The translations under genes and the position numbers were made by a program. A stretch of 64,000 nt of DNA from Tissierellia bacterium (GTDB lineage Bacteria; Bacillota; Clostridia; Tissierellales; Tepidimicrobiaceae): assembly GCA_012735215.1 (NCBI GenBank), contig JAAYHX010000002.1, forward strand, positions 1 through 64,000, in the 5' to 3' direction. Under the pieces are notes generated by a model that saw only the letters and a list, made by a program, of their open reading frames with translations, was not told the DNA's origin and ran no database searches. Below, piece by piece: positions 37,928 to 54,219 of this stretch. Positions within the stretch are counted from its first letter, which is position 1, and each line of letters opens with the position of its first letter.

Positions 37928-38036
37928 TTGTCCACAGGCTAAAAGTGGTAAAATTAGTTATTCACAAAACAATCCACATTATCCACAACCAATAGATATA
38001 TTTGTCCACAATATTATTCAGGTTTTTTGTGAATAA
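37928..38036. promoter_or_regulatory. DnaA-box cluster A
   Basis: Three exact TTATNCACA boxes: 37958-37966 (+), 37979-37987 (+) and 38028-38036 (-). Two TTGTCCACA boxes lie at 37928-37936 and 38002-38010, and CAATCCACA at 37970-37978 abuts the next box head to tail. Six boxes in 109 bp of gene-free DNA is far above the scattered single copies seen in coding sequence. No dnaA gene is in the window, so this is more likely a DnaA titration or control site than oriC itself. Confidence 0.7.
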
Positions 38037-38165: not shown

Positions 38166-38693
38166 ATGAAACTTGCTTTTACAGGGAAGAATGTCGAGGT
38201 AACCGAAGCTCTAAAGGACGTAACAGAAAAAAAATTATCAAGATTAGACAAATATTTCGACAAAGATGTAGTAGGTAATGTAGTCTTCAGTGTAGAAAGG
38301 AACTGGAAAGTTCTCGAAATAACCATAAACCTGCCTGGAACTATACTGAGAGTTGAAGAATCTAGTGATGATATGTATACTTCTATTGACAAAGCTGTAG
38401 ATGTATTGGAGCGTCAAATAAGAAAGTATAAGACTAGACTTCAAAAGAGATATCAAAGCGGAGAGACTATAAGGTTTGAGAATGTAATGCCTCTAGAAGA
38501 GGAAGGAGAAAGACCCAGGGTCGTTAGAACAAAGAGATTTGGAATGAAGCCTATGAGTGTAGAAGAAGCTATATTGCAAATGGAATTGTTAAGACACAAC
38601 TTTTTCGTATTCATGAATGCCGAAACTGATGAGGTAAGTGTTATCTATAAGAGAAAAGATGGCAATTATGGCTTGATAGAACCAGAATTTTAA
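38166..38693 (+). CDS. hpf: Ribosome hibernation-promoting factor, long form
   Basis: A 175-residue long HPF. The N-terminal S30AE/RaiA domain (1 to about 100, MKLAFTGKNVEVTEALKDVTEKKLSRLDKYFD) binds the 30S decoding region. The C-terminal dimerisation domain (about 118-175, VVRTKRFGMKPMSVEEAILQMELLRHNFFVFMNAETDEVSVIYKRKDGNYGLIEP) forms 100S ribosomes. ATG 38166 follows GAAAGGAGTTGG. The promoter region upstream contains the DnaA-box cluster. Confidence 0.95.
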   Translation: MKLAFTGKNVEVTEALKDVTEKKLSRLDKYFDKDVVGNVVFSVERNWKVLEITINLPGTILRVEESSDDMYTSIDKAVDVLERQIRKYKTRLQKRYQSGETIRFENVMPLEEEGERPRVVRTKRFGMKPMSVEEAILQMELLRHNFFVFMNAETDEVSVIYKRKDGNYGLIEPEF

Positions 38694-51098: not shown

Positions 51099-51116
51099 CT
51101 TAAAGAGGTGGAAACA

Positions 51117-52133
51117 ATGGATAAGGATATTGTAACGTTAGCAATAGAAACATCATGTGATGAAACTTCCTGTGCCATACTAAGGAATGGAAGGGAAGTT
51201 TTGTCCAATATAATATCTTCTCAAATAGATATTCACAGGAAGTTTGGTGGAGTAGTCCCAGAGGTGGCCTCAAGAAAGCATATTGAGAACATGAATTTGA
51301 TAATCCAGGAAGCCTTGGATGAAGCAAAAATGACCTTTGACGATATAGATATAATAGGTGTAACTAGGGGGCCGGGCCTTGTAGGTGCCTTGCTTGTAGG
51401 GATCTCTAGTGCTAAGGCTATTGCTTATGCCTTGGATAAGCCCTTAATTGGTGTAAACCACATAGAAGGTCATATTTGTGCAAACTATATTGAGCATAAG
51501 GACTTAGAACCTCCTTTTACCTGCCTAGTAGTGTCTGGAGGTCATACCTACCTTATATATGTAAAGGACTATACAGAATATGAAATGGTGGGCAGAACAA
51601 GGGATGATGCAGCAGGGGAAGCCTTTGACAAGGTAGCAAGAACCTTGGGCTTATCCTACCCAGGAGGACCTGTAATCGATAAGCTCTCAAAGGAAGGCAA
51701 TCCTGATGCTATCCCCTTCCCAAGGGTCTATCTGGAAAATGACAGCTATGATTTTAGCTTTAGTGGACTTAAAACTGCCGTGCTAAACTATATAAACCAA
51801 GCTAGGCAAAAGGGTGAAGAGATAGTAGTCAAGGATGTGGCTGCCAGCTTCCAGCAAGCTGTAATAGATGTGCTTGTGGATAAGTCCATAAGGCTTGCCA
51901 AGGAGAGAAAAACAGATAAAATAGTAATAGCTGGAGGAGTAGCAGCAAACCAAGGCTTAAGGGAATTGATGGCCCAAAGGGGCCAAGAGGAGAATATCAA
52001 GATTCTCTATCCATCAAACAAGTTATGCACAGACAATGCAGCTATGATAGGCTCAGCTGCCTACTTTAACTATATGAAGAATAAGGTCTCAGACCTTTAT
52101 TTAAGTGTTGCTCCAAATTTAGAGCTTATATGA
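51117..52133 (+). CDS. tsaD: t6A transferase TsaD (Gcp/Kae1 family)
   Basis: A 338-residue ASKHA-fold enzyme that transfers threonylcarbamoyl to tRNA A37. Metal-ligand HIEGH is at 115-119; [27 protein letters not shown] and [10 protein letters not shown] are canonical. GAGGTG precedes ATG 51117; the GTG at 51108 is inside that ribosome site. Immediately downstream lies the second DnaA-box cluster. Confidence 0.97.
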
Positions 52134-52158
52134 TAATTATCAACAAAATCCCCAGAGT

Positions 52159-52287
52159 ATTTCCACATGCTCATATATAACCACATGTAAATTATTGTGG
52201 ATAATGTGGGAAAACAACTTTATTTCCAATAAAATCCCCAGTAATAGGACAAGTTACTGGGGATAATTTTGTGGATAATGTGCATAA
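52159..52287. promoter_or_regulatory. DnaA-box cluster B, next to tsaD/gcp
   Basis: Three exact TTATNCACA boxes on the minus strand at 52196-52204, 52270-52278 and 52279-52287, the last two abutting head to tail. Weaker matches lie at 52159-52167, 52177-52185 and 52205-52213. They fill the gap between the convergent tsaD and ABC-F genes, together with an 11-bp hairpin (52234-52244 with 52254-52264). B. subtilis also has a DnaA-box cluster at gcp (tsaD). Confidence 0.7.
52234..52264. terminator. Hairpin between convergent tsaD and ABC-F genes
   Basis: ATCCCCAGTAA (52234-52244) pairs exactly with TTACTGGGGAT (52254-52264) around a 9-nt loop. AT-rich flanks but only a short T-run on the plus strand; possibly a shared terminator. 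Confidence 0.5.
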
Positions 52288-52308
52288 ATATTGAAAAAAT
52301 AGGGAAAA

Positions 52309-54219
52309 CTATAACTCTGTTAATTCTATCCATTTTTCATATAATTCATCTAGCTTCTTTTGTAAGTATTCCCTTTCCTTAGACAATTCAGCAATCCTCT
52401 TTGGATTATCATATAGCTGTGGATCGCACAGCTGCTGATCCAAGTTGGCTATCTCTGTTTCCCTTTCTTCAATGGATTTTTCTAGATCCTTTATTTCCTG
52501 CCTTTTCTTTTTCTCTTGAATTAGCTTCTCTTTTTCCTTTTTCTTATCCTTTATTATCTGAGTTTTAGTCTTATGCTCTTCCTCTTCTTCAACTATTAGC
52601 TCATTTTTTTTCTCAATATAGTAATTATAATTTCCTAGGTATTCCTTTATTCCCTCTGTTGATAATTCCAATATCTTATCACATACCTTATTTAAGAAAT
52701 ACCTGTCGTGGGAGATCACAAGAAGAGTGCCGCTATAGTCAATAAGGGCATCCTCCAATACTTCCTTTGAATCTATGTCAAGATGGTTTGTAGGCTCGTC
52801 CATAAGGAGGAAATTTGCCTTGGACATCATTAACTTAAGAAGGGACAATCTACTTCTTTCACCACCGCTCAGTTCGCTGATCTCCTTAAAAATATCATCA
52901 CCAATAAATAGAAACCTGCTAAGGAGACTTCTAATGGTGAAATGGTCTAGGTTTGGATTTTCATCCCATATCTCATCAATAACTGTATTGTCCAAGTTCA
53001 GATTGGCTTGTTCCTGATCAAAATGTGCCACATTTACACCATGGCCTAGTATTATATCCCCTTCATCGGCAGGAATTTCCTTTAGTATTATTTTAAACAA
53101 GGTAGTCTTTCCAACACCATTAGGTCCTATAAGTCCAACCTTTTCTCCCCTATATATGTTAAAGTTTATATCATATAACAGCCTCTTTTTGTCAAAACTC
53201 TTTGTTATATTATTAACACTTAAGACCTGTTTTCCACTTGTGGTCTTAGGCTCAAAGCTAATCTTTACCCTTTTATTATCAATAGGAAGATCCTTTACCA
53301 GCTTCATCTTGTCCAAGAGCTTCTGTCGGCTTTGGGCTTGTTTTATATACCTGGCACCACCATAGTTAGAGAAGCGTTTTATGATCTCTTCCTGCCTTTT
53401 TATTTCCCTTTGCTGGTTTTCATATTGCTTTTTTAGTATTTCCAGTTCCTTTTTCCTCTGCTTCATAAACCCTGAATAGTTGGCATCATATACCCTTATT
53501 TTTTTGTCTTCTAGGTGGAATATTTTAGATACCACATTATCCAAGAAATACCTATCATGGGAGATGATAATAGCTGCTCCCTTGTAGTCTTTAATATAGG
53601 CTTCCAACCATTCAGTGGCTTCAATATCCAAATGGTTTGTAGGCTCATCCAGAAGTATCAAGTCTGGTTTAGTTAACAATAGCTTTGCTAGGGAAACCCT
53701 AGCCTTCTGGCCACCGCTTAATATGTCTATGCTCTTGTCCATATCCTCATCAGTAAAACCCAGTCCCTTTAATACTCCCTTGATTTCGCTTTTATAGCCA
53801 TATCCATTTAGATTATTGAACTGCTCCAACATATGGGCATATTCTTTCATCAGGTTGTCCAGCTTGCTGGATTGGCCATTTTGACCTTCTTCACTAATCC
53901 TCTTTTCCAAGTCCCTCAGATCCTTTTCCATCTGGACTAGGGGTTCAAATACCTCAAGGCACTCATTGAATATGGTCTTTTGGCTGGATATGTTAGTATG
54001 CTGCTTTAAATATCCTATTTTTAGACCCTTTCTAATATACATATCTCCCCCATCTCTGGACAGTTCATCAGTCAGTATATTGAAAAGGGTGGTCTTGCCA
54101 GAGCCATTTAGGCCTATAAGACCAATTTTGTCCTTGTCTTCCACTGCAAAACTTATATTTTCTAGTACCTGATTTACTCCATAGTATTTTGATATATTGC
54201 TTAAAGATAGTACTATCAT
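52309..54219 (-). CDS. ABC-F family ATPase (YdiF-like)
   Basis: A 636-residue soluble protein with two ATPase domains and no membrane spans. The first Walker A is GLNGSGKTT (36-44), the second GPNGVGKTT; both LSGG signatures (ILSGGQKAR, LSGGERSR) and DEPTNHLDI Walker B motifs are intact. The linker between them carries the ABC-F interdomain helix, and the C-terminal ~90 residues form a charged coiled coil. ABC-F proteins act on the ribosomal E site. ATG 54219 follows GGAGCGAG. Position beside tsaD and rex matches B. subtilis ydiF. Confidence 0.92.
   Translation of the reverse strand: MIVLSLSNISKYYGVNQVLENISFAVEDKDKIGLIGLNGSGKTTLFNILTDELSRDGGDMYIRKGLKIGYLKQHTNISSQKTIFNECLEVFEPLVQMEKDLRDLEKRISEEGQNGQSSKLDNLMKEYAHMLEQFNNLNGYGYKSEIKGVLKGLGFTDEDMDKSIDILSGGQKARVSLAKLLLTKPDLILLDEPTNHLDIEATEWLEAYIKDYKGAAIIISHDRYFLDNVVSKIFHLEDKKIRVYDANYSGFMKQRKKELEILKKQYENQQREIKRQEEIIKRFSNYGGARYIKQAQSRQKLLDKMKLVKDLPIDNKRVKISFEPKTTSGKQVLSVNNITKSFDKKRLLYDINFNIYRGEKVGLIGPNGVGKTTLFKIILKEIPADEGDIILGHGVNVAHFDQEQANLNLDNTVIDEIWDENPNLDHFTIRSLLSRFLFIGDDIFKEISELSGGERSRLSLLKLMMSKANFLLMDEPTNHLDIDSKEVLEDALIDYSGTLLVISHDRYFLNKVCDKILELSTEGIKEYLGNYNYYIEKKNELIVEEEEEHKTKTQIIKDKKKEKEKLIQEKKKRQEIKDLEKSIEERETEIANLDQQLCDPQLYDNPKRIAELSKEREYLQKKLDELYEKWIELTEL

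Follow-up and report, generated by a model that had tools for sequence, protein, structure and literature searches.

The window analysed here, a 64,000-nucleotide stretch of a Tissierellia bacterium genome, carries an ordered cluster of DnaA boxes in the gap where tsaD and an ABC-F gene converge. We consider it likely that this cluster is the orthologue of the B. subtilis gcp–ydiF cluster and serves as a cooperative ATP-DnaA platform that restrains initiation. The homology is well supported by sequence comparison. As to function in this organism, we infer that its own DnaA would bind the cluster, with a preference for the ATP form, and that initiation would be delayed. Both the kind of site and its position at the same junction are already known from B. 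subtilis; the new part is the fixed geometry of the array. Found across much of the phylum next to tsaD at nearly constant spacing, the array probably acts as an ancient brake on replication of the chromosome. In the open-licence literature we found no account of phylum-wide conservation or fixed geometry of the tsaD cluster, though this is weak evidence.

As tsaD ends at 52133 on the plus strand and the ABC-F gene ends at 52309 on the minus strand, the cluster occupies a convergent intergenic region of 175 bp (52134–52308), which contains it entirely. Five minus-strand boxes form two groups, A/B (52196, 52205) and C/D/E (52258, 52270, 52279). The features of the junction are as follows.

51108–52133, plus strand: tsaD (gcp), TIGR03723
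52134–52308, no strand: convergent tsaD/ABC-F intergenic region, from the sequence and relatives
52137–52145, plus strand: weaker box in opposite orientation, TTATCAACA, common to many family relatives
52159–52167, plus strand: weaker box in opposite orientation, ATTTCCACA, common to most of the family
52177, plus strand: weaker box, ATAACCACA, from the sequence
52196–52204, minus strand: DnaA box A, TTATCCACA, kept in relatives
52205–52213, minus strand: DnaA box B, TTTCCCACA, abutting A; many relatives read TTTTCCACA
52234–52264, plus strand: terminator-like hairpin between B and D, with 12 pairs; box C overlaps the right arm
52258–52266, minus strand: DnaA box C, TTATCCCCA, 53 bp from B
52270–52278, minus strand: DnaA box D, TTATCCACA, 12 bp from C, from the sequence and alignment
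52279–52287, minus strand: DnaA box E, TTATGCACA, abutting D and fitting the B. subtilis consensus TTATNCACA
52309–54219, minus strand: ABC-F ATPase in the position of B. subtilis ydiF, NF000355

The initial annotation had counted three exact boxes here, two of them abutting, plus weaker ones. Three boxes do match TTATNCACA, while only the two minus-strand boxes A and D are exactly TTATCCACA within 52159–52287; the weaker boxes it noted beside tsaD are present at 52258, 52205, 52137, 52159 and 52177. An exact DnaA box also occurs at 51875–51883, within the tsaD coding sequence and outside the conserved array. Gene order in the window is tsaB-rimI-tsaD-><-ABC-F-rex (rimI by position only), which we take to be the order of B. 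subtilis as well (ydiC-D-E-F and ydiH/rex). The assembly comprises 25 contigs; the tsaD cluster lies on contig C13 and oriC on contig C25, upstream of dnaA, which places the cluster outside oriC, and neither dnaA nor dnaN is adjacent to the tsaD site.

The cluster, with several DnaA boxes within about 200 bp, exceeds chance. The 64-kb window holds 14 copies of TTATNCACA, where shuffled versions average 3.5 and have at most 8, and the three copies per 129 bp reached in the window were reached by none of 100 dinucleotide shuffles, a single one of which gave two. It is very improbable that the boxes are by-products of a terminator and of AT-rich intergenic DNA, with no role for DnaA. The hairpin that overlaps box C in the window does speak for such an origin, and most of box C lies within 52234–52264, so that box and terminator use common sequence. 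Against it, hairpins in the spacer are not general (mean z −0.41; 9/80 fall below −2, compared with 14/218 control stretches), boxes are conserved and stems are not, and composition-matched shuffles give no such cluster. The hairpin is thus no conserved part of the element, and we rejected the by-product reading.

To assess conservation, we read the sequence that follows tsaD at about 270 loci, taking at least three boxes within 150 nt as the criterion for a cluster. The initial annotation had predicted a cluster conserved beside tsaD in relatives, and hence ancient; such a cluster was found at 69/90 loci of the window's order and 41/89 loci of the phylum sample, being missing beside tsaD at the other 48 of these 89. 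These counts cannot be read as independent trials, since the best tsaD matches are over-represented among the loci and many of the genomes are related to one another. In Planococcaceae, a sample reached via a named Paenisporosarcina contig, clusters stood at 28/30 loci, with 17/17 in their order and 21/30 in their class. Under the same criterion the controls gave 2/256 inside tsaD coding sequences and 0/256 in shuffled downstream DNA; box density was 6.7 per kb downstream of tsaD and 0.65 per kb within it. Named carriers include Anaerosolibacter carboniphilus (L034) and Paenisporosarcina (L041). Position and geometry are continuous through intermediate lineages toward B. subtilis, and the cluster is kept downstream of tsaD even where no ABC-F gene is in reach. 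The site thus survived a search among relatives for loss of the boxes beside tsaD, and the prediction holds beyond expectation, since box spacing is kept in addition to presence. Loci of one family (f19, e.g. L003, L015, L018) carry a rearranged cluster at the tsaD/ABC-F junction, shorter and of mixed orientation, with boxes near +22, −33, +72 and −95.

Read along the boxes on the strand opposite tsaD, the core geometry is E at 0, D at 9, C at 21, B at 64 and A at 73 bp. A matrix scan for this geometry returned scores of up to 79.9, against at most 11.1 for shuffles and 10.9 within tsaD, and 60/90 loci of the order, 41/89 of the phylum sample and 28/30 of Planococcaceae scored above every shuffle and every tsaD-coding control. 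In an alignment of 48 sequences the boxes are near-invariant and the spacers between them unconserved. The strand opposite tsaD holds 679 of the 835 boxes, and spacings peak at 9, 12, 21, 43, 52, 64 and 74. Same-strand distances, drawn from 106 distinct spacing signatures, are phased near 10.5–10.7 bp, with R at 10.5 of 0.51 over all pairs and 0.47 over those more than 25 bp apart; the Rayleigh figure for this phasing ignores relatedness. The window itself has a B–C spacing of 53 bp where its relatives have 41–45 bp; in the family alignment the longer spacing shows up as about 10 inserted base pairs, close to one turn of the helix. This is a single case and no test of phasing.

We also considered whether this geometry is general to DnaA sites. 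The oriC of relatives uses the same boxes as the tsaD site. In 30 genomes from the order and phylum, the oriC loci lacked a 9-bp peak, and none of their geometries dominated; given the missing 9-bp peak, we rejected general DnaA spacing as the source of the array. In E. coli, DnaA prefers double boxes with a fixed short distance between the partners, namely 2–3 bp between boxes or 11–12 bp start to start (PMC11317965). The main pair of the tsaD cluster differs in that its boxes abut (9 bp start to start), with a 12-bp step in addition.

A sequence-only model of the element (R1) was run on 48 genomes, in 47 of which the positions of tsaD and dnaA are known, and matches were classed for the 39 complete genomes with a listed match (about 25 bits or more). 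Among the matches listed, the best genome-wide match lay beside tsaD in 20 genomes, at oriC in 4, less than 40 kb from tsaD in 2 and elsewhere in 13. Eleven of the 20 tsaD-side matches were in genomes outside the training set, some of which have relatives in the training alignment; a 5-kb target would give about 0.07. In the two intermediate cases, the best match lay as far from tsaD as hpf does in relatives (G078) or in an intergenic site (G162). Most of the 'elsewhere' sites that we read were beside hpf or after comFC-like genes, the gene names being assigned from translations by eye.

The initial annotation had tied the control site to the tsa locus. The tie is more exactly to the tsaD/ABC-F junction. 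In two of the genomes with an 'elsewhere' match (G081, G101) there are no boxes downstream of tsaD, and the ABC-F gene, 49–54% identical to that of the window, has the cluster at its 3′ end; ABC-F-end clusters where tsaD is apart were read at 1999–2070 of locus L288 and 2072–2090 of locus L291. Because the cluster stays at the ABC-F end in two genomes with separated genes, it was most likely the ancestral tsaD/ABC-F junction to which the element belonged, and either gene can retain it.

Distance from the origin was also considered. In the 47 genomes that are complete or nearly so, tsaD and dnaA are separated by 6–47% of the genome (median 19.7%), a distance without tight conservation. Cluster-bearing loci are on average nearer to oriC (17.4% vs 26.9%), a difference that is suggestive genome by genome (p 0.015) and lost once the loci are collapsed by family (p 0.18), for which reason we claim no distance rule.

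The same genome carries two further conserved clusters, both upstream of genes.

37928–38036, plus strand: second conserved DnaA-box cluster, upstream of hpf (38166–38693), with its own geometry
contig C19, 2960–3120 of locus L002 (G000:C19:66959-67120): third cluster, upstream of gcvT, with abutting boxes

In the 500 nt preceding hpf, 27/30 loci of the order carry three boxes or more, in a fixed geometry distinct from that at tsaD (about 0, 30, 42, 51, 74), and the gcvT-upstream cluster recurs in about 15/19 family loci read. These upstream positions, together with the role of DnaA as a transcription factor elsewhere (sda, in B. subtilis), would fit a site where bound DnaA controls an antisense transcript or either of the converging genes, tsaD and ABC-F, or forms a roadblock between the two. 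We regard such transcriptional control as unlikely, since the tsaD cluster sits at the 3′ ends of both genes. Promoter-like matches there are at chance level only, and the cluster persists both where ABC-F is out of reach and beside ABC-F where tsaD is elsewhere.

The nearest known counterpart is the gcp/ydiF cluster of B. subtilis, which is reportedly among the six that Okumura et al. 2012 deleted. Like the cluster in the window, it is flanked by the 3′ ends of tsaD and of the ABC-F gene, has multiple boxes and is not oriC; it differs in having 10 reported sites, where the core in the window has five and fewer strong boxes, and the organism of the window is a distant relative. For the box-by-box comparison of geometry, Planococcaceae were used in place of B. 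subtilis. The DnaA-box cluster at gcp that the initial annotation mentioned is indeed described for B. subtilis, as DnaA region 4, 'downstream of gcp; downstream of ydiF' (Smith and Grossman 2015, PMC4447404). B. subtilis DnaA binds it strongly in vitro, with an apparent Kd of 0.15 uM for ATP-DnaA and 0.33 uM for ADP-DnaA, and at 55 nM 16-fold more of its DNA was recovered with ATP-DnaA than with ADP-DnaA, making it one of the two regions with the strongest preference for ATP-DnaA (PMC4447404). The limit on initiation, likewise mentioned, agrees with two reviews, according to which B. subtilis without six non-oriC clusters initiates early, strongly so only when all six are gone (PMC5295017, PMC13220808).

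Under the reading that we favour, DnaA would assemble cooperatively on helically phased boxes at the non-coding tsaD/ABC-F site, the phased platform being formed by boxes that abut in pairs (9 bp), a step of 12 bp and a spacer of about 43 bp, which is 53 bp long in the window. The cluster would hold ATP-DnaA away from oriC, and its copy number would double after fork passage; held ATP-DnaA and a doubled cluster would together restrain re-initiation. The non-oriC clusters of B. subtilis have mostly been discussed as a sink for free DnaA. In much of the phylum the spacing at one junction is fixed and phased, which points to selection on a specific nucleoprotein structure. The reason for the strong ATP-DnaA preference of some DnaA sites could not be defined from the too few regions known (PMC4447404), and the array supplies concrete spacing rules to test that bear on this preference.

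Spacing this strict suggests that a defined complex forms, and an action like that of datA or DARS is conceivable. In E. coli, datA, DARS1 and DARS2 resemble the tsaD cluster in being non-oriC sites with ordered boxes, and they control initiation; they differ in their use of IHF (datA) and in their positions. A DnaA oligomer built by the array geometry might thus alter the nucleotide state of DnaA, through ATP hydrolysis or ADP release, beyond merely holding it. The phylum-wide strict spacing and phasing, which exceed the needs of a plain sponge, and the preference of the B. subtilis locus for ATP-DnaA both favour this, as does the mode of action of datA, in which DnaA forms an ordered complex and a bending protein takes part (PMC5295017). 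Whether regulators of this kind exist in B. subtilis is described as an unsettled question (PMC13220808). On the other side, the sequence of the B–C spacer is unconserved, and B. subtilis is without IHF and no nucleotide-switching site has been shown there (PMC13220808). According to the same review, B. subtilis has neither datA nor DARS (PMC13220808). On balance such an activity at the tsaD site is possible but rather doubtful. We are just as tentative about extending it to the tsaD, hpf and gcvT clusters together, as old, geometrically coded platforms altering the nucleotide state of DnaA; if true, this would provide a functional counterpart of datA and DARS in bacteria thought to be without them.

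The presence of two clusters 14 kb apart, which had also been singled out from the window, is borne out by the cluster upstream of hpf, and it arises because tsaD and hpf mark two separately conserved sites. In several relatives as well, the tsaD and hpf clusters are 11–30 kb apart. hpf encodes a ribosome hibernation factor, and the level of DnaA and the expression of hpf may be linked.
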